NCBI GenBank assembly: GCA_019914995.1 | Contig: CM034140.1 | Location: 6,634,001 to 6,698,000, forward strand | Direction of reading: 5' to 3' | Source: Acanthochlamys bracteata | Taxonomy: Eukaryota > Streptophyta > Magnoliopsida > Pandanales > Velloziaceae | DNA length: 64,000 nucleotides | In this document: positions 22,102 to 47,439 of the stretch, piece after piece | Position numbering within the stretch: the first letter of the stretch is position 1 | How the letters are laid out: every line of letters starts with the position of its first letter | The notes under the pieces: model-generated | What the model was told of the DNA's origin: nothing | What the model saw: only the letters and a program-made list of their open reading frames with translations | Databases searched by the model: none | Position numbers and translations under genes: made by a program

Positions 22102-23710
22102 GCATGCATGATTCTCGTATCCATATTTATATATTTATCAGTAAGTGTAGGTAACCACTATGGGATTACCATGCATGTTGTATAAATATGCATGGTTGAT
22201 GCTTTATTTATACAATATGTACGTGGTGACTTTTATTGATTGTTGCTTCGTTTTGTATTGTTTCTGTGATTTTCGGTTTCCTTTACTTTTTAAGTATTGT
22301 TGGAGATTGTATTCTAATTATTTAATGTGGTGTTTGAGTTATAAAGTTTGGATTTTCTTGAATCAATAAATTAAACGAGTCGTGATTTATATACCATATG
22401 TGTGGTTATGCATGAGTTGGGACTTTAAGGGTGTGTTTGGAGAAATTTTTGTTCCCCAAACGTACTACACAGTAAAAGTACTTGTTTAAAAGTGTTTAGT
22501 TGAAACGCAGCTTATCCGAACCAAAACGTTACTTTATCTAAATTACAAATTTAAACTCAACATAAATATTATCTAAATTAATTATATAAAGGGAACAAAT
22601 ATTATCTAAAATAATTTTTACAAATTATTTAAAAGATTATTAAATATCTAAAAACTTATTCAATATTTAATTAATTATTTAATTATTAATTATTTAACAA
22701 AATTTTAAATAATTATTTAACAAATTATTTTACAAAATAATAATAATTTTAATTTAAACATATATTTATAAAAATTAATTAATTTATGTATTTCTATTTT
22801 AAAAGAAAATTAATATTTATACAAAATCACTTTATTCAATATAATATTTTTTAAATAAGTATTTTATTCAAAATAGCATCAATAATTTAGTAAATATACA
22901 TGAATAACTAATACAAAACACTAAAATAATTCAGTAATTTTCATATCTTTTTATTCGGAAAGCATCTTATCTAAAAGCACTATCAAATACTATTCCAAAA
23001 TAACTCCTTTTTTCTTCATTTCTTGAAAGCTACTTTTTTTTCTAAAAACTTCATTTTAAAAAAGCTCTTTTTGTTCAAAATAAAAAATATTTCATTATAT
23101 TTTAAAAAATAAGTTTTCTATTTTCAAAATATTTTATTTTAGAAATTTTATTTTTAAAAATATTTTTAGATATCTCGTAAGTGATGGAAAATTTCACTTA
23201 GGGTTTCTTTGGGTTGATTTTGTATTGATTTGGGATTCGTATGTTCGTTTTAGTGGTTATTTATCTAAGTATTTTTTATTTCAAAAACAAATTTCATATG
23301 TTTTAATAAAATTTTTATAATATTTTATAAAAAATTTAAAATATTTAAATTATATCATACATTATTTTATATTTTTGTTAGAACAATTAATTTTGTTTTT
23401 AAAAAAACAAAACAGGCGCCGACATTTGGTCGACTTTTTTAGCAAATTTAAAAAGGTCAACCAATATCGATGCTGGCTTGTGTAGTTTTGATTTCGCTGA
23501 CAGGAGCAACGCTATAATACATGTCATCAAATTCACAAGCCTCTTACCAACGGTTTGTTGTTTACCAAAACTAAATAAAAAAACGTACATATAAAATAAA
23601 AAATTTTTAAAATAAAAATTACTTTGATTTTTTTTAAAGTTTTTTTAATTTAAAAAAAAAATAATAATAAAATATATAATTTTATTTTTTAAAAAATATT
23701 TTTAATTTTT
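22102..23710. other. 3' flank of copy B, then AT-rich DNA
   Basis: 22102-22430 matches the 3' flank of copies A, C and D. From 22440 a miniature-transposon-like AT stretch follows. Near 23205-23250 the phrase 'GATTTGGGATTCGTATGTTC' recalls the segment downstream of copies C and D (30650, 51860), so a trace of the unit's downstream part is retained. No gene is recognised. Confidence 0.5.
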
Positions 23711-24042
23711 AATTTAATTTTTTTAAGTGAGTTTTAAAAAAACTCATTTTATTTATTTTTTTTATCAACATAATGCCCTTAGTCTACTCGACACAAAAAA
23801 TAGAAAACTTCATGAATATTTAATTTAATTTTTTTAAGTGAGTTTTAAAAAATTTATTATTATTTTTTTTTTTATCAACATAACGTTCTTAGTCTACTCG
23901 ACTCAAAAAACTGAAAACTTCATGAATATTTAATTTAATTTTTTTAAGTGAGTTTTAAAAAAACTCACTTTATTTATTTTTTTTATCAACATAACGTCCT
24001 TAGTCTATCTCGACTCAAAAAATAGAAAACTTCATGAATATT
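23711..24042 (+). repeat. Tandem repeat, about three copies of 110-112 bp
   Basis: A unit running from 'TTAATTTAATTTTTTTAAGTGAG' to 'CTTCATGAATATT' occurs three times, with unit ends at 23820, 23930 and 24042. Each contains 'TTATCAACATAA' and 'TTAGTCTA' followed by CTCGAC. Sequence is highly similar between units, so the amplification is recent. No open frame is conserved across units. Confidence 0.85.
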
Positions 24043-24384
24043 TGACCGGCTTTGAAAGTAATATATATTTATCTACATCCAATAACTTGTATTTATAGGG
24101 CGTTGGCAATAACTTCGTGGGCCATTTACATAACAAAATGCCAAAATAGTCGTTTTCTGTTTACGTATTCGTTTTATGTCTAGCAACTCTGTTGACACGT
24201 GCGAGAACAGCAGCATGACCGAATATAAATTAAAGAATTCATTTTATAAGTCTTCTTACGAAAGCAACTGAGAAGAAAGATCCGTAACACTGAGGCCACT
24301 CCACTTATTGCACCGTCTTAAAAGTGGAATAATATTATATTTATGTTCTTATTTCCCTTGATGAATTACAGAATATGGGCACCT

Positions 24385-26168: not shown

Positions 26169-26424
26169 AGAGCTCTTGAAAGTTGTAAGAATGGATACAG
26201 TTGTTGTCTTTCATAGTTGAAGTTTTTGTAAGTTGTAACGATGCATGCAATTATTCTTTCATAGTTTAAGCTCTTGTAAGTTGTAATGATGCATGCAGTT
26301 GTTGTCTTTCATAGTTTAAGCTCTTATAAGTTGTAATGATGCATGCAGTTGTTGTCTTTCATAGTTTAAGCTCTTATAAGTTGTAATGATGCATGCAGTT
26401 GTTGTCTTTCATAGTTTAAGCTCT
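26169..26424 (+). repeat. 50 bp tandem repeat, about five copies
   Basis: The phrase 'TTGTAATGATGCATGCAGTT' recurs at 26281, 26331 and 26381 with exact 50-base spacing, and in more diverged form at about 26185 and 26231. Each unit continues 'GTTGTCTTTCATAGTTTAAG'. The last units are almost identical, which points to recent expansion. GATGCATGC is palindrome-like within each unit. Confidence 0.9.
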
Positions 26425-27894
26425 TTCATGGCTGTTTTTGTTGAGAGTTTGTATGTAATTTGTTGATGATAAAGTTGATATGTTTGAATTCCTATGCTTC
26501 AATCTGTCTGCAAGAAAGTGAAGCAAATATTTCCTATAAAGCTTCAATCTTTATGTAACTCTAAACATTTTAGTATTGATTGGAGTAGAACATTGCTGGA
26601 AATGGAACAAAGTGATGCCTACAAATATTAATGAATTTTCTTGCTGAAATTAAATATATCAGGGTTGCTGGATATGTTCTGATTGGTTTTAATTTACAAA
26701 TACTTGTGCTTTTGGAAAAAAATGCATCCTTCAATGTTGGAGAAACTTTTTGTTTGAACTAGGCTATTAATTTTTATTCGATAAACCACAAGACTAGATC
26801 AATATGCACATTATAGGAAACAAAAAATGGAATACAATTTGTGGTCCTTTTCCTTACTGGAATGTAATTTACACTGATTTTTTTGATTTTGCAAAGAGGT
26901 TTCTAGGTGAACAATTGAAACAAATAAGCAAATATATACTTGTTACTTCCATACATGTCTGTGTTTGTGATAATATTATGGTGCATGCAAGGTTTGTGAT
27001 CTAGCTTTCTGTTCTTGAGGATTATCTTAAAGAAAAACTTGTTGTTTTATCTGGAACTTCATCTATGCTTTGAAGTTTTTAATCAGAGCCATTGTAGAAT
27101 ATATTGAACATTCACTTCAATATCAATTCTGCAGCAAAAAAAGTATGCTTGTATCTGGTCCTTTGCTTGCTTTATGTACTTCTTTTAGTTTCCAGTATTT
27201 TGCTACTATGAGGTAGGAACTTCCATGTGTTATCCTAAGCTTAGCAATTACATGTTTAAACAATCACATAATATCTTGAAGGTTTTCAGTTTTAAAATAA
27301 ATATCTTACTGGTATGCAGGTGCTGAGATTGAAGGTTTTGGTGTTCCTCTATCCTGGAAGCAGAGTGGTGTTTCTTTGTTCTAGCCTGTTACTGCAAGCA
27401 GAGCGGTGTTCCTCTGTTGTTCCCTACTCTCATTTGCTTCCACTTATTGATAGCAGTTTGTAATATTTAAAAAAAAATTTTAACATCTTTTAAGCAGTGG
27501 TGTATGAATTAGCTAAAACAGTTAGTAATACATTTTTTCAATAGATTGTTTGAAAGATCAGTTAGCAAAAACAGTTAGCTAAAATTATTTGCAAGCTTAT
27601 TTAGCTAAAATATTTGGTTGTTGATAATTGCTATCTGTGTTGAAAAGATGCTTCTTTGGTTAGCAAAAATATTTGAAATTGTTTTTTTAACTAGGTTCCT
27701 GTTTAGTGAAATTTTAAAGGTTAAAGAGAATTTCTGTAAAGCAATTTTCTTTCTTATATATGTGATATCAACCATGAATCTGTTGAAATGTTTTTTTTTT
27801 TGTGAATTTCACTTTGTGAAGTAACAAGAAAAACAAGCAAGTGATTCTCTTTCGTTGTTAATTTTTACTATTATTTTACACCAATATTTTTCTT

Positions 27895-38654: not shown

Positions 38655-39460
38655 AACAGATTTAAGTAACAAAACCAGAGCATGGCGTCTTCTGCACAGA
38701 GGTTTTAATTTCCTGCACAACTTAGTCCTGACTCACAAAGATGAAATGTCAAAACACAGTAGCAGATGCAAGATAAACAGAGAACATGACTAAAAACATC
38801 TAATTCTAACAAAGATATAAACAGAAGTGATTATACTGTTGACAAGCACAATGGCATTTCATAAGAAGTTGTCATGCCTTTACAAACAATCATCACAGAA
38901 TAGTTCCGATAAAGATAGAAAGAACAATAGATTACAAAATTGATAAACACAACAACATTTCACAAGAAACTTTCATGTAATTAGATACAAACATAACAGA
39001 ACATATGTTATATCGAAGATTATTCCCATGCTAATATAAGCTTCAATTACTTACACATAAATATATCCTCCGAATGTTGATACCAGATCCTCCATTCTTT
39101 AACAATGATAAAGATTTATTTCTATATAGCCACAAGATTAACCTGAATCAATATATATTTCTTTATATGCATTTGCTGAGTTACCTGAATTAAAACTTAA
39201 ATATGCCAAAAACTTGAGAAACTTGAATATCATCAATCTGATCGACATGTCAAGTTAACATATGTAAGCAGAACATATTCTTGTTTTACACATAACAAAG
39301 ACGACAGACTAAAAATTATAACAACAATTAACTTATTCTACTAATACAATGTCAATAATTAATAATTCCAGGCAAGGTGAGAGTATTAACAACACAAGTA
39401 ACTACGAAATTGAAGCAAAATGTATCATTGAGTTAGTATAAGAAAGGCAACAAAAAAAAA
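38655..39460. repeat. Intron-like duplicated segment, copy 1 of 3
   Basis: Begins 'GAACAGATTTAAGTAACAAA' and contains 'TTTCATAAGAAG', 'ACAATCATCACA', 'GAACATATG' and 'ATGCCAAAAACTTG'. It recurs at 39735-40376 (continued at 47356) and at 52921-53714. Each copy leads into a CCCH zinc-finger exon fragment in the same relative position, so it is probably the first intron of that ancestral gene (minus strand). Confidence 0.75.
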
Positions 39461-39590
39461 CCACCGATAGGTGATCGACGGAGTTTGGGGAGCCGTGAGC
39501 GAAGGACCAGTTTTGATGATTGCACTGATCATTCCGGTAGAGCTTGCAGAGCTTCGTCTTGTAGAATCTCCGCCAAATGAATCAAAAGGA
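39461..39590 (-). pseudogene. CCCH zinc-finger exon, degenerate copy
   Basis: The minus strand reads 'RRFYKTKLCKLYRNDQCNHQ' then 'NWSFAHGS'. The finger keeps two Cys and the His but the third Cys is Trp, so zinc could not be held normally. The start codon region is altered (the ATGATC of the better copies is not present). Upstream 'GAATTCAAAGGTTAGAC' matches the shared leader in shortened form. Confidence 0.6.
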
Positions 39591-39734
39591 ATTCAAAGGT
39601 TAGACTTAGGCCATTTACCTACCAATCAAACTATATTTTTTTCAAACTCAATTTTAATATAAAAAAAACAAAATTTTTTAGATAAATTTTTCTATCAATA
39701 TTTTTTTTAAAATTCAATTTTAAATTCTAGCAAA

Positions 39735-40376
39735 TTACTTGACTAAAAACAGAGAACATGACTTAAAATATCTAATTCTAACAAAGATATAACAAGAACT
39801 AATTACACTACTGACTAACACAATTGACATTTCATAAGAAGCTGTCATGTCTTCACATACAATCATCACAAAACAGTTCTGATTGATATAGAACGAACAG
39901 TAGAGCACAAAATCAATAAACAAAACAACATCTCATATTTCACATTCATTAGATACAATCATAATAGAACATATGTTATATACAATCATAATAGAACATA
40001 TGTTATATATGACGATTATTGCATTCTAAAGTAAGCTCCAATTACTTATCTTGACATAAATATTTCCTCCAGAAAGCTGGTTCTATATCCTACATTCTTT
40101 AACAACGATAAACATTTAGTATATAACCACAAGAATAACCTAAATCAAAATATATTTCTTTTATATGCATTTTTCTGAGTTATCTGAATCAAAATCTAAA
40201 CATGCCAAAAACTTGCGAAAATCGAACATCATCAATATGATCGACATGTCAAGTTATACAAGTAGCAGAACAAATTCTAGTTTTACTCATAACAACGACC
40301 GACTAAAATTATAACAACAGTTAACTAATGCTAAAACAATATCAGTAACTAATTAATAATTTCACGCAACATGAGA
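39735..40376. repeat. Intron-like duplicated segment, copy 2 of 3, split by an LTR
   Basis: Matches 38655-39460 and 52921-53714. It is interrupted at 40377-40381 by the LTR insertion and resumes at 47356 with 'GTTCAACAACACAAGTAACT', which aligns with 'TATTAACAACACAAGTAACT' in copy 1. Two copies of 'AATCATAATAGAACATATGT' sit side by side at 39956-40004. Confidence 0.75.
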
Positions 40377-41312
40377 GTTCATGTCACGACCCGAGGCCCT
40401 GTCAGGCACTAGACTAATCCAAACTCAAGCTCAGACTCGTCCAGTCAGCCTACCAAAACTCGGTACAAATAATAAGTACATAATTTCTTCAAACTTTTCG
40501 GCAAAACCTCCCATAAAAATCCAAGAGAAAACTTTTACAAATTCAACTACTGTAACAAACTCAACAATTTACTCACAAAGATACCAAACAATCTTCAAAC
40601 TTCAATCACCCATAAAAGAAATAAACACCTCATTGGACTATTACAAGCCAACAACTTTTAATATGAAAACCAATAAATATGAATACAACTCGGCATAATA
40701 CACAAATAAAACGTACAAATCCCTCGAAGTTACAGAGCTCACTAAGAAATATGAAACACAAGAGTATACCATCATCGTGTCACTCCAATCTACATCCGTG
40801 AGCGCCCATTTTATCAGCTCTACTCTGCAACAACTGGGGGAGGCCAAAGAAGAGAATACTGAACCCAATCTCAATGAGGTGAAAAATTAGAATGCACCAT
40901 TTAAGGCTTCTAATGCATTACTCTACCGTTATCTCAACATATCTCTATATGAAACGATGCAACGATAGATCAAATTAGTCTTGCTAAGCCCTAAGTCGTC
41001 TCATACCAACTCAGTCCTTAACAAGAAAAAAAAGGCTAAAAATGTGATGCAACACACTTGAAAATTATTTCTCTTATAAAGTCATTCATTATACGCATGA
41101 CGTTATAGTACTTAACTTTCGTAATATCAACATGTACATATCTAAATATTTAACCATATACTACAAAAATAATTCTAATGGTCTTCTATGTATGTCGATA
41201 TATGCAACCTCCTAAGCCATTAATAATTTTATCCACTCATGGCAGATGTATTATATGGACTAGAAAATGATAATAGTATAACATAAGTAGTGAGAGAGAC
41301 TACGTCTCCAAC

Positions 41313-41657
41313 TGTTACGCCACGAGCCGTAGCTTGGAGTGAGCCACTACCTATCGGGAAGAAATAAAAGAGTCCAAGTCTTATTAGGAGTCTTTGGGTT
41401 TTTCCTCATTAGGAGTATTAGAGTTTCATTGGAAAACTAATATTTAGTGTCCAAGTTAGATTGAAATCCTAACTTTATTAGTGTAGTAAATCTAAAACTT
41501 TAGCTATGAATTTTAGCTATAAATAAGAGTGCTTATACTTATTAAAGTGGAGGAAGAAGAATTGAATTAGTTAGTTTATATTAGTTTTATCTTAAGTTCT
41601 TTAGTTTATTTAGCTTCAAACTACTTCTACGGTTCGTATGATTTACGAATCGTATCA
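41313..41657 (+). repeat. Left LTR of the gene-carrying element
   Basis: TGTTACGCCACGAGCC to GAATCGTATCA. Contains 'CTATAAATAAGAG' near 41519, a likely promoter TATA, with transcription starting inside the LTR. 345 bases against 348 in the right copy. Confidence 0.9.
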
Positions 41658-41672
41658 ACTAGTATCAGAGCC
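41658..41672 (+). other. Primer-binding site
   Basis: ACTAGTATCAGAGCC follows the left LTR. The last twelve bases match the initiator-Met tRNA site used by most plant LTR elements with one difference. Confidence 0.7.
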
Positions 41673-41707
41673 GTCGATCTGCACCCTCGCTTTTGCTGTC
41701 AGCTACG

Positions 41708-42504
41708 ATGTCCTCATTGTACCAGCAACAAATACAATACCCACAATATTATCAACAATATTATCAGCAACAGAAGTTTCATCTGCAATCGTATTACGGT
41801 AATGATTCTTACCAGCAATATAATCAGTCATATGAGTTATATCCGCAACAATATTCTCATAATCTTAATCAGCAATATTATTGGCAACAAGAGCCATATT
41901 CGCATGGGTTTCATCAAAATCCTTATGAGCAATCTTATCAACAATATCAAATTCAGCATCAGAGTTCACAAATTTATTATCATCAACAATATCAAATCCA
42001 ACCACCGCAAACTCATGCAATGCCTAAACCTCAGCATACGAGTGATGCTCTAGAGCGGTTAAGCTTACTTCTAGCCGAGCTAAAGGAGTTTTCTGCCGGA
42101 CTTCAGAAATTTAAGAATAAACAGAACCAAATAGAAGAAGTTCAACAACAACAGCTTCCTATTTCACATGATCCAACTCATGTTTCTTTGGATACTACTC
42201 AAGCCACTGCGGCCACCGGAATTAAATCGCTTCATATGGATTCTTCACAATATTTTCCCACTCTAATCACTCGTCCCACTGCCGCTACCGAAATCCAACA
42301 ACCACCGCCACCAACTGCTACCACAAGCGCTGCCTCATCCCTTTCAGACAGCATATTCAAAATTGATGAGTTTAGACTTCCAACTTTAGCACCGCTAGCA
42401 CCAGCAAAAGAACGGAGGTATTCGGCTGAACCAAAATCTCCCAAATCGTCAAATTCGAAATCAAATCAATCACCAACAGTGATGTCAGATCGTGCCGACG
42501 ACGA
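41708..42504 (+). CDS. Gln/Tyr-rich leader frame of the gene-carrying element
   Basis: The first ATG after the primer site (41708, MSSLYQQQIQYPQYYQ) opens a frame that runs on to a TGA at 42662-42664. Residues 1-110 are dominated by Gln, Tyr, Ser and His in QQY-like repeats, a prion-like composition. A helical stretch follows ('LERLSLLLAELKEFSAGLQK'), then Pro/Ser/Thr-rich linker sequence with 'FRLPTLAPLAPAKERRYS' and 'AEPKSPKSSNSKSNQS'. No zinc knuckle or other gag landmark is present. It could be a derived gag, a second captured gene or a new protein. From about 42505 the frame passes into the start of the captured host gene. Confidence 0.45.
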
Positions 42505-43954
42505 TAAGGCTACTAAGCTGCCTGGGATGAAACAAGCCGACAAATCCCGTCTCAAGAGTGAAGCTCAGAAATCTACCGCTGTTCAAATCTCTTTCAAAAT
42601 TGTCTTTATATCTTACAACAACAACATTATTAGCATCAACCTTCAGAGGCCGAATCGAACATGACGGCGACGATGATGAATTTGAAGAAGAGCGCATCAA
42701 AAAGCCTATAGATCCACCCGATCCTACAAAGTCTCTCTGTGCAGACCTTGGTATCGCAAGTGGAACTGGTTACTCTCATTCATCGCTCATGTTCATCGTA
42801 GAGGACTCCGGTGGCCGGCGGGTTCCACATAGTGAAGAGGATATCGCTATTTTAGGAGGTAACAGTGCCGGCACCTATTCTGTTACTTGTGCTGTTCCAC
42901 AACTTCTGAAATTTTGGGGTCATATGGAGTTAGATTTACGAGCAATGATGGGTAGACCATTTTCTGTGTTCTTTGGCTCGGCATTAGCAACACGCAGAAT
43001 CAGTGTTACTAGTTTATTGACAACATCTTCGAGTCACTGTCCCAAAAAAGTCAATCAGATGATGTGCAACATGCCTAACTATACTGGAGGGGTATTGGAC
43101 ACTTGTGCTAGATCTTCTGGATGGGTTGTGTTGCCAAACATTGGTTCGACGTTACGAAAAGTTTGTAGACATCACTTGACAGAATGGTGCATGAAGAATA
43201 ATGATTGCATGTATGGACAATTGCCACATAATTTGCTAGTGATGGCGATTACTGGGACGACGATAGTGGTATCCCTAAGCCAGACTTCCATGGCGCCCTC
43301 TGAAGTTACGGTGGCTAGCTCACATGCTATTAATGCTACTAGGATGCTCCAGCCCCATGCTGCCCAGATGCACGGACAGCAAGCCAAGGTAAAAAAAAGG
43401 CACGAGGTTCTCTTGATAAAGTTGATAATGAGGACATCTTGAAGAAAACACTCGAAGTTAGCAACCTTAGTCCTCTCTTTGCTGCAGATGACCTCAAACA
43501 ATTTTTTGGTTATTATGGCACTATTGTTAAGTGTATACTCGCAGAAGATGAGCACTTTGCATATGTTGAGTACTCAAAGCAAGAAGAAGCTAGTGCAGGT
43601 TTAGCACTCAACAATATGTACGTGGGTAGCGGTTCACTGAATGGTGAGATGGCAAAGTCCTCTCGTCTGAAACCAGCTTTGGCTAACTCATTCTATGTGT
43701 CAACGTCATTGATGATGCAGCAAGCAGAAGTAGTGCAGCAGAAGAATTTTCTGCAGACTTTACTTATGCAACAAGCATTAGCTATGCAGCAGGCTGCTAA
43801 CAAAGCGACAACAATGAAGTCTTCAATTGCGATAGCATCTACCAGAGCTACTGAATTAAGTAAGAACCTCAAGCCAGAAAGGTTAATTATGGATGGGAAG
43901 GAAGATGGAAACAAAATGAGGTCATGCCTCCTTTACGTCAGAAATCAAGGTTGA
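42505..43954 (+). pseudogene. Captured, intronless host gene: SR-like protein with filamin, CCCH and RRM domains
   Basis: Colinear with a plant nuclear RNA-binding protein family that I recall from Arabidopsis At3g23900. In order: an N-terminal helix 'PGMKQADKSRLKSEAQKS'; an acidic stretch 'DDDEFEEERIKKPIDPPDP'; a filamin-type repeat ('GTYSVTCAVPQ', 'MMGRPFSVFFGSA'); a CCCH-like segment ('EWCMKNNDC', 'LPHNLLVM'); an Ala/Gln helix; an RRM ('KKTLEVSNLSPLF' with RNP2, 'HFAYVEYSKQEEA' with RNP1); and a Met/Gln-rich tail 'LLMQQALAMQQAANKATTMK'. No introns interrupt these domains, so the source was spliced RNA. Frames change near 42600-42650 and at the A-run near 43390, so the full protein is not made now. 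Frame 43388-43954 keeps the RRM open. Confidence 0.8.
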
Positions 43955-44437
43955 ATGTTGAGCGTCTTGTGCATGCAAAGACTGTTGATTCAGAGGGAGA
44001 TAAGTTTTATTGGCTGTCGTCTGTTCTTCTGTTTGTGTCTTCAGCCTGGGACAGATTGCTCTTCGCTTATGACATCGGTGCTAGTTTTCAAATTAATGCA
44101 GTTGGACGAAGATACAAGTATGGGTTAAGTGCTCCTATAGCAGAGTTGTTGGGCAGACGGATGTGGACTTGGTCATCATCCCCTCACTGGTTATTTCTTA
44201 GGGCTGTTCAAAGCCAAGGGTTAATATAGGAGGCTTATGCAGAATTAAAAGACTCATTGTTCGTGACTGATTGGATCTCTTAGTACTTCTTAGTTGCTGC
44301 AGTAAAGATAAATGTAACACTCTTAGTAGAGGAGCTCTGTGCACTTAGCTCACTCGATAGAAATGTGCTCTCTTCCTGTATGAGCTTGCTGAGCAGAACC
44401 AACGGCATTGTCAACCTTGAGAACAAGGTTGATTTTC

Positions 44438-44450
44438 AGGAGGGGTGGAA
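44438..44450 (+). other. Polypurine tract of the gene-carrying element
   Basis: AGGAGGGGTGGAA, interrupted by one T, ends directly at the TG of the right LTR. Confidence 0.75.
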
Positions 44451-44798
44451 TGTTACGCCACGAGCCGTAGCTTGGAGTGAGCCACTACCTATCGGGAAGA
44501 AATAAGAGAGTCCAAGTCTTATTAGGAGTCTTTGGGCTTTTCCTCATTAGGAGTATTAGAGTTTCATTGGAAAACTAATATTTAGTGTCCAAGTTAGGTT
44601 GAAGTCCTAACTTTATTAGAGTTGTGGTAAAGCTAGAACTTTAGCTATGAATTTTAGCTATAAATAAGAGTGCTTATACTCATTAAAAAGGAGGAAGAAG
44701 AATTGAATTAGTTAGTTTATTTTAGTTTTATCTGAAGTTCTTTAGTTTATTTAGCTTCAAACTACTTCTACGGTTAGTATGATTTACGAATCGTATCA
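44451..44798 (+). repeat. Right LTR of the gene-carrying element
   Basis: Near-identical to the left LTR. Visible differences include an inserted G/T stretch around 'AGAGTTGTGGTAAAGCTAG' and a few single-base changes. Followed by the duplicated CCAAC. Confidence 0.9.
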
Positions 44799-47439
44799 CC
44801 AACTCACACCATATCATCACAAGCATGCGCATATATATGAATCAATCTAACATATGCAAATCTTATTTCTTAATATCTAGATAAGCACAAGTCAATATGT
44901 ATATCGCTAATGCATCAAGCACTCTTAACCATACCTCACAAGCGATCGAGTGAGATCACGTCTCCAACTCGCATCACATCAAACTCTTTGCATATATGCA
45001 TGCATAAAGGTACCATAAATATATCAATACATAACACATCTTCTTGTAATGCTTATGTATGCACGTGACATTCATGACAATAAATCTTTGAATGCATACG
45101 TGTATAGATGCGTGCAGTAAAAGGTGAAATGCATACCTATACTATCTATATATGTGGCCGTGCATGTAGTATCTAACTACATGACGCGATACTGTTTAGA
45201 GAATCAGGATAATATAATCATATAGTATAGAGCGAAACCCAGTCTCCAGCTCAACCTACCAATCAAGCTACTTCTGCCTCGGCGAGATACAACCATCCCA
45301 AGTGATCAAATCGGATGAACGTGGTATCGGCCCCACACGCATGGGCCTGATAATACTATGACCGTAGTTGGATGCCCGCCCCACACCCACTGGGGTCCTA
45401 ATCTCAACTCCTGACTCGCCTGCCCTCGTGTATCGCGAGTGTCCATACATAAAAAGTCAATCAAATTCAATTATCTACAAGCATTAATCATAGGTCATAT
45501 GCTTATGCATATACAAACATAATCAACCAAGCCTAAAAGCCTCTATTGGATTTCCATCACCATCAGGTGTCCATGCACATGTAGGTACACAAAGTTACAT
45601 ACTCTATGCTTGAAATTCATATACAAACAATATGTGAAAGTCACACTCACATATCTAAACTTACAATGCATCATGATTACAATAATTGTCATTCTTGATG
45701 AGCATGCTTTACAAGTGAAAAGTGCATTCGATGCAGAACCCAATATGGCGTACGAAATGGTGCATGCAATTTAATAGTATCACGTGTCTTCAAAATCATT
45801 TGAGTCACGTATAAACTAGTTAAGCATGCTAATCCATTTACCAGTGATATACTAATATACTTGTGTTGTGATTATTATGCACATATGCCAATCTAAGCAT
45901 GCTAATATGTTAGATTCAAAACTTCTAGTAGCTTAGCATATATCATAACTTGATATAGAGTTAAAATGTCTATACTTTAGCCACTTTAATAGCATAATAC
46001 CAATGTCAAGTTTACATGATATCCAATATATAGAAGACATTTTATAGATCTCATGTACTTGTATATCACAAATTCTAGATTATAACATACAAAAATGGTA
46101 TTCTCATCAATCATACAACTAATCAATTCCTAACATTTTATCTTAATTACTATTACTGTCCTAATTTTATGCAGGCATGCACATATAAACATTCTATGGC
46201 ATGAAAGATCAAATCTCACTATGCATTGAATTGTAAGGTTATGCCGAATGCACCAAAGAATATATTACTTGCGTTGAAAACTTAACGGTAAAGCTAAAAA
46301 CAAAAGACACAAGTAACCCTCACCTGTATGTCCATATAATTTCTAAATTTCTACGGCTATCATCAACTTGAATATCCAAGATGCTCATCAAGACCATAAT
46401 ATACACGAAAAAAATTACCATCCAATCTTCATAACATGAACTAATTCACAATCTTAACACGCATCCAAAACCCATTTAACTCAATTAGCTCTAAAGCACA
46501 ATCGAACCAAGATCCATTATTAACTATTAAATCCAATCAATCAATAACTTATAAACCATAATACCGACTAATACTAAAACTAGCGGGAACAAAGGCCTAC
46601 CAAATCAAAGCAAGTCGAGCTCCTAAATAGCCTCACAGTCTCAACGGCGAACTTACCGATTTTCGACCCGAACAACACCTATGACAAAACGGGTTACCCA
46701 AAGGCTCAAAGACAAGATAAAACGCCATAAGAGATTATTACAACTTACCTTAGCCGCGGGTCTCGCCGGCTCGCCGGATTCCGGCGAAAATTAGGTTTCC
46801 GACCAAAGGTGGATTTCAGGCGGCAAAGAGGCGGCAAAAATAACGAAAATCCAATAAGAGGGACGGTGAAGCCAAAGGAGAACGCCGGCGGGCGAAATCG
46901 GCAAAACAACATCCGACGGAAAACCCTTTTTCAATCACATGCCTAGGCTAGAATTCATTCAAACTGAGGGAGGGAAAAGCTAAAACATGCCAAGGAGAAG
47001 GATATTAGAAGATCGGAATTGAATAATCGCCGGCGAAACGCCCGGCGAAACTCTAGGATTATGCCGGCGCGAAGGGAGAGATCGTTCGAGAGCCAGATGC
47101 GAGGAAACGTTGACGGAGAAGAAAGATGCCGGAGGTAAGGAAAGAGATGAGCGCCGGAGGGAAGACCAAAGGCCGGCGAGATGAGCCGCACCAAGCGGCG
47201 CTCGGGTGAGAGCTTGGGGACCGAGCAGGGAAGACGATAGGGAAAAGAAAAATTAAATGAAATCAAGGAAGAGTGAATTGAAGGCATTGGGCTTATACTT
47301 GTTAGCAATTAGCTTAAACATGGGCTTTAGTCCAAACAAGTATTGAGATGTTACAGTTCAACAACACAAGTAACTATGAAATTGAAGCAAAACGTATCAT
47401 CGAGGAAGGGTATTAAAGACAAACAAATTATATACCGGG

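Follow-up and report, generated by a model that had tools for sequence, protein, structure and literature searches.

The window considered here is a stretch of 64,000 nucleotides (nt) from Acanthochlamys bracteata, C15:6634001-6698000 of the 195.5-Mb source genome, to which contig labels such as C1 and C2 refer. At 41313-44798 it contains a long terminal repeat (LTR) retrotransposon of 3486 bp, which carries spliced sequence from two host genes. Its direct LTRs (345 and 348 bp, 95.4% identity, TG...CA ends) differ by a Kimura two-parameter (K2P) distance of 0.039, with 8 transitions and 5 transversions over 345 sites. They are accompanied by a 5-bp target-site duplication (TSD), a primer-binding-site-like sequence and a polypurine tract, CAGGAGGGG, which was recognized by eye directly before 44451. 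The primer site is presumably of the tRNA-iMet type. Among the features expected of such an element, only gag-pol is lacking: in Pfam searches of four sense frames of the element no gag or pol domain was found, RRM_1 alone passed the cut-off (7.6e-9, in 43343-43951), and BES1_N (0.14) and RRM_occluded (0.064) fell short of theirs. Because no gag-pol domain lies in the scanned frames, the element is taken as non-autonomous. The preliminary description of this DNA had reported two LTRs of about 346 bp, a primer site, a purine tract and a CCAAC duplication enclosing no pol, all of which holds.

The first captured gene, gene A, derives from contig C4. A genome search with the interior of the element found one other match place for 42429-43922, at C4:9313442-9316273 on the minus strand, and gene A was found captured in this one copy only. 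The gene encodes an SR-like protein of the filamin/CCCH/RRM type. The element carries exons 1 and 2 and the start of exon 3 of this parent, beginning 53 nt upstream of the parental ATG and stopping 32-35 nt into exon 3, and both parental introns, of 1218 and 348 nt with GT..AG ends, are precisely absent. With exon edges marked by slashes, exon 1 of the parent ends at AAAGCACCAG/GTTCGT and exon 2 starts at CAACAG/GTTCTCC, and exon 2 ends at ATTGAG/GTGGGT and exon 3 starts at CAGCAG/GTCTCC; the element runs uninterrupted through both joins, reading CACGAG/GTTCTC and ATGAG/GTCATGCC. Of the parent's predicted codons, which number at least 908, the captured part comprises about 530 and excludes the arginine/serine-rich (RS-rich) C-terminus; the 908-residue protein was predicted by manual splicing, and its 3' end is provisional. 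A database search with the parent protein returned 299 proteins at E <= 0.001, the best among the 120 matches listed coming from Dioscorea alata (61% identity). Plant orthologs carry filamin (PF00630) and RRM (PF00076) domains and are annotated as SR-like or RRM-containing. Within the element, the exon 2 piece, which includes the RRM, is best preserved (66% amino acid identity to the parent vs 53% and 59% elsewhere), and the filamin region gives no Pfam match.

Gene A is directly adjoined by host complementary DNA (cDNA) from a second, unlinked gene, gene B, a sugar transporter on the minus strand of C10. Positions 44083-44232 match C10:7842332-7842484 at 80%, where the C10 frame is a Sugar_tr domain (Pfam, E 1.1e-9). 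The segment 44031-44081 matches an exon lying upstream of this one in C10 (51 nt at 78%; the local score of 58 compares with at most 42.4 among 200 shuffles), and 43954-44030 matches the next exon upstream of that, with a score of 82.4 vs 28.0 for the reversed query. These two exons are fused at 44030/44031, at the host acceptor site, and the jump from 44081 to 44083, which lies off the inferred exon edge, omits about 1.2 kb of host sequence including other exons. In total, three introns from two unlinked genes are exactly absent from the element, and this exact loss rules out capture at the DNA level, as in Pack-type elements. The preliminary description had proposed the capture of most of one host gene, at 42505-43954, as an intronless and colinear copy of a plant RRM/filamin gene with an intron-containing parent. 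The copy, its gene family and its parent were all recovered, and introns sought in the captured part were not found; the RRM stands, the filamin repeat goes without a Pfam match, the extent becomes 42429-43951, and the single-gene reading is incomplete, the second spliced gene at 43954-44232 having been overlooked.

Table 1. Coordinates of the element, its captured host sequences and its insertion site within the window
Feature	Position	Strand	Basis
Target-site duplication CCAAC, left	41308..41312	+	sequence inspection
5' LTR (TG...CA)	41313..41657	+	95.4% identity to 3' LTR; best other genomic place 86%
Primer-binding-site-like sequence ACTAGTATCAGAGCC...	41658..41675	+	by eye
Family leader open reading frame, in frame with captured gene A	41708..42428	+	reading of open reading frames, copy comparison
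Captured gene A, cDNA with 53 nt of 5' leader	42429..43951	+	match to C4 parent
Gene A exon 1/exon 2 join, 1218-nt intron gone	43406..43407	+	alignment to C4 parent
Gene A exon 2/exon 3 join, 348-nt intron gone	43920..43921	+	alignment to C4 parent
Captured gene B, Sugar_tr transporter cDNA pieces	43954..44232	+	matches to C10 parent (- strand)
Family 3' tail: NLE(D/N)KVDFQEG-coding stretch, hairpin CAACCTTG..CAAGGTTG, purine tract	44329..44450	+	also at C9:6129351
3' LTR	44451..44798	+	LTR pair comparison
Target-site duplication CCAAC, right	44799..44803	+	sequence inspection

The leader open reading frame (ORF), starting with an ATG at 41708, has a Gln/Tyr-rich beginning (31% Q and 21% Y in the first 107 residues), followed by a Leu-rich stretch and a Pro/Ser/Thr linker, and gives no Pfam match. 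The first approximately 625 bases of the interior are common to six other copies at 79-85%. A single frame leads from the leader ORF through the parental 5' leader and the parental ATG at 42482 to a stop at 42662, which bears out the earlier suggestion that the leader frame runs into the captured N-terminus. Further downstream, the exon 3 frame of gene A continues in frame into gene B up to its one stop, at 44227-44229, so that the leader/gene A and gene A/gene B joins are both in frame. The chain is now interrupted by three frameshifts (8 nt, 1 nt and a net 1 nt), and with these and one stop this copy is dead. In the active element, one long frame beginning at the Gln/Tyr-rich leader was most likely present in the RNA and may once have been translated.

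The element belongs to a dispersed family, whose loci in the source genome carry L-numbers. An LTR search of the genome gave 40 scored matches out of 151 candidates, the element's own two LTRs included, with relatives mostly 75-80% identical; further places came from searches with the leader, the tail and inner ORFs. The best LTR relative, C6:7094406 (L043; 86-88%), is an apparent solo LTR with flanks AACTA/TACTA, one mismatch apart; its scan gave no match, and it was excluded from the copy count. Thirty-two copies were examined: inner ORFs of 31 were run through Pfam, and C6:6928k was compared with host exons; the ORF scans were partial and some loci spanned only about 1 kb. Twelve of the 32, this element included, have identifiable host sequence. 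A methyltransferase-like gene (host C3:3093k), probably that of methionine S-methyltransferase, whose host exons gave no more than weak methyltransferase matches in Pfam, occurs together with SecY in C14:2944k and C6:6928k, the former additionally holding a GH116 domain match (6.9e-45). SecY (host C19:826k) is also present in C9:2960k, C20:3711k, C5:4075k, C5:6712k and C13:6020k. ClpB is represented in C2:12700k (AAA_2, 3.5e-21) and in C2:6311k, where GST_C (1.1e-5) and ClpB (3.4e-50) share one 509-residue frame whose third stretch matches C14:7155-7156k, and whose neighboring frame gives an Adaptin_N domain match (2.4e-12). C9:6452k has an Asn_synthase domain match (1.4e-15), and C9:3520k combines matches to EF-1alpha (1e-9) and FGAM synthase (3.2e-5) in one 719-residue frame; both scores lie under the NCBIfam whole-protein cut-offs, EF-1alpha is also found at 1e-6 against PDB, and Pfam is blank there.

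Among sister ORFs, the 719-residue frame has one database match at E <= 0.001, a host enzyme; a PDB search of three others gave no match, and no gag match was obtained in the frames of this element or in the scanned sister ORFs. Matches below the Pfam cut-offs (Na_Pi_cotrans 0.0043 in L016, Tfb2 0.0082 in L006 and others) were not counted as captures, and a 992-residue frame listed at C6:6930483 was left unused, its stretch holding a TGA. Host introns are missing from sister interiors in both cases checked: a methyltransferase-like copy reads CCTCTAAAG/GTACATGG across the host intron position, the same exact splicing, and the ClpB pieces in L054 are contiguous where the host exons stand apart. 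The likelier host ClpB exons are at C14:6751-6752k, C1:12929k and C6:2637k; C2:6311k (75%) was discarded as parent because family ORF sequence adjoins it at C2:6312638. The preliminary description had regarded unrelated sister interiors as evidence against capture. The interiors literally are unrelated, but capture is not refuted by this, because those that can be identified are host coding sequence. The family seems to pick up cellular mRNAs repeatedly and to string them into long protein-like frames.

The modules seem, moreover, to be reshuffled between copies, since parts of one ORF, C2:6311073-6312599, recur apart. Its residues 2-203, which cover GST and the beginning of ClpB, are found again at or near C2:10427k, C15:1199k, C1:9620k and C3:5564k, residues 188-496 at C2:12700k, and its end, from about 430, at C14:7743k, C9:259k and C16:4041k. 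An element-specific module resembling HDDLDLLCPN...LDRRR...FSIDPGDQ recurs in L010, L035, L045, L051, L054, L062, L064 and L065, with no Pfam match to it in the ORFs scanned. At the 3' end, the 34-nt stretch 44412-44445, which includes a short, perfectly paired hairpin next to the purine tract, occurs at 15 places with up to three mismatches, and the reversed pattern at none. This stretch is possibly a cis signal or a relic of a polyprotein end; the tail reading NLEDKVDFQEG is reminiscent of the end of plant gypsy polyproteins.

The element is very probably one copy of a short, pol-less LTR family that captured spliced host mRNA behind a shared leader. In this model, element RNA and a stray cellular mRNA would be co-packaged in particles provided by an autonomous partner, and reverse transcriptase would switch template between the element RNA and the spliced host mRNA. 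The chimera would then have integrated and been copied onward before the present insertion, with the partner presumably mobilizing it in trans. Inspected by eye, the insert ends have neither a poly(A) run nor a TSD of their own. Gene A differs from its parent by a synonymous divergence (dS) of 0.29-0.56 by segment vs an LTR K2P of 0.039, and the capture therefore looks several times older than the present insertion.

Several points weigh against this model. No host gene was identified in 20 of the 32 copies, with ORF scans partial and several loci incomplete. No autonomous partner was found either, no pol being present in about 1 kb upstream of five of the 15 tail-pattern places, with one or two ORFs scanned at each; mobilization in trans and the reverse transcriptase used are therefore conjectural. 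The age of the capture could be misjudged through LTR conversion or error-prone copying and, as one copy alone holds gene A, only divergence would speak for its passage through earlier copies. Finally, template switching is indistinguishable from read-through followed by recombination, and microhomology is no help without the element sequence that preceded capture.

Gene A differs from its parent at 314 of 1469 nt (21%) but has no stop in 481 aligned codons, a count that does not extend to gene B; 4.9, 6.9 or 8.8 stops would be expected if half, three quarters or all of the changes fell on the element, and 8, 0 and 0 of 1000 runs, in one simulation for one element, were as low. Of 13 alignment gaps, whose direction is unpolarized, seven have lengths divisible by three; another two, of 17 and 28 and separated by four bases, add up to 45; the remaining four are 8, 1, +1 and -2, none of them divisible by three. 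Three stretches compared between element and parent gave ratios of nonsynonymous to synonymous divergence (dN/dS) of 0.58, 0.47 and 0.60. When 14 plant orthologs are used for polarization, 128 amino acid differences are assigned to the element and 10 to the parent, with 37 undecided, sites conserved among distant orthologs biasing this polarization somewhat towards the parent. If half of the synonymous change is assigned to the element, its branch has an estimated dN/dS of about 1. For the leader, the ratio is 0.39 in comparison with L010, 0.36 with L024 (over just 79 codons), 0.48-0.65 with the five further close copies (L011-L014 and L016, four with 1-2 stops) and 0.65-1.04 with six remoter ones (L018, L020-L023, L026); the two wrong frames, compared with L010, yield 0.58 (5 stops) and 1.42 (12 stops). 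Constraint thus seems moderate on the leader and very slight on the captured parts, and the frame itself, more than the protein, may have been guarded.

Across the family, the longest sense frame (269-719 residues) exceeds that of the opposite strand (102-220 residues) in all 16 sister loci compared, which represent 14 copies; it reaches at least 325 residues in 12 of the 16, 100 shuffles of each of the 16 giving maxima of 133-259, and frames of 509-719 residues are open in six sisters. It is possible, and offered here tentatively, that the family keeps its RNA alive through one long open frame from the leader to near the 3' LTR, with selection acting on openness rather than on the protein and captured mRNAs being interchangeable stuffer. 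Any in-frame spliced host coding sequence would then serve, since nonsense-mediated decay in plants tends to strike transcripts whose stop comes early and is followed by a long 3' region. It is doubtful that the open frames are meaningless and the host coding sequence has simply yet to decay. The frameshifts and stop of this copy, the near-neutral dN/dS of six sister pairs (0.54-1.03) and the stops in captured or leader parts of several sister copies would suit such an explanation, but the missing stops in gene A and the gaps that preserve the frame, the pair summing to 45 included, do not.

As for the route of capture, an older model of transduction holds that transcription reads through from an element beside host genes, followed by splicing and recombination between packaged RNAs. 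This would likewise yield spliced host sequence within LTRs, and the junctions are compatible with it; however, it requires element copies next to each of about 10 host genes, and no LTR match lies in the stretches searched around the parents, C4:9311937-9317773 and C10:7840832-7843984 (wider flanks and other parents lie outside this search), so we consider it unlikely. It is quite improbable that selection favored the captured RNA-binding domain because of some function, for instance binding element RNA as a substitute nucleocapsid: exon 2 is indeed the best preserved piece and is fused to a Gln/Tyr-rich leader, but 128 of 138 polarized differences are on the element side, and identified sisters hold enzyme, transporter and chaperone pieces instead. 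Scarcely credible is a processed pseudogene of the C4 gene, poly(A)-primed and made by a long interspersed nuclear element (LINE), that fell by chance into an older element, since this explanation accounts for the lack of introns but is largely refuted by an end 32-35 nt into exon 3 without poly(A) run or flanking duplication and by the directly adjoining second gene, and sits poorly with the frame shared with the leader and the different genes of the sisters.

In the surroundings of the element, the insertion flank 41292-41313 resembles 44948-44969 and 45230-45251 (86% and 73% over 22 nt), perhaps because an old repeat served as target, or by chance. A tandem duplication of about 1 kb (38775-40378; spacing mostly 968-1000, blocks 80-94% identical) lies close to the element on its left, and short tandem arrays with 110-bp and 50-bp units lie at 23704-24043 and 26171-26425 (90% matches).

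Among short LTR elements, terminal-repeat retrotransposons in miniature (TRIM) measure about 1.5 kb or less, and large retrotransposon derivatives (LARD) have a long non-coding interior. With 3486 bp, a coding-derived interior and no gag match, the element falls outside both classes and outside the TR-GAG elements. The latter are described as mobile, pol-less LTR elements with one ORF (PMC8704663); the lack of pol is shared, but their ORF encodes GAG, whereas Pfam recognizes nothing in the present leader frame. Closer is maize Bs1, an LTR element in which exon-only segments of three host genes are reported to form a chimeric gene undergoing both transcription and translation (PMC13317346, PMC4717578). 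Like it, the present element has intron-free exons of more than one host gene between its LTRs, with parents located on C4 and C10; Bs1, as described, is one element with three genes, whereas here several related copies join different host genes to one leader ORF. The soybean TRIM GmaRetroS15, a small LTR element, is reported to share the 5-bp TSD and exon-only pieces, in its case of three host genes, and TRIMs with gene fragments are given as 1172-1449 bp (PMC4717578). The present element is longer, at 3486 bp, and carries a leader ORF with its joins in frame. Capture by LTR elements is common, with 672, 1343 and 424 captured genes counted in rice, sorghum and maize; in the main text of that survey neither "intron" nor "more than one gene" occurs (PMC3726574).

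Bs1 and GmaRetroS15 are true precedents, and single LTR elements with transduced genes are already known. Beyond the preliminary description, the analysis adds the cDNA of a second, unlinked gene in the element and the sister copies with other host genes. None of the titles and abstract openings searched, a coverage outside which most subscription literature lies, described a family of plant LTR elements whose common leader ORF is fused to many different host mosaics. With at least 12 copies holding host pieces from about 10 source genes, joined in frame within one small genome, the family offers a natural series of capture events whose junctions, ages and selection are open to measurement. 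Two questions thereby become testable: the frequency with which reverse transcriptase in plants jumps from element RNA to cellular mRNA or back, and the reason for the long open frames maintained by elements that lack pol. If openness of the frame is indeed what is selected, the family would be a running exon-shuffling machine.

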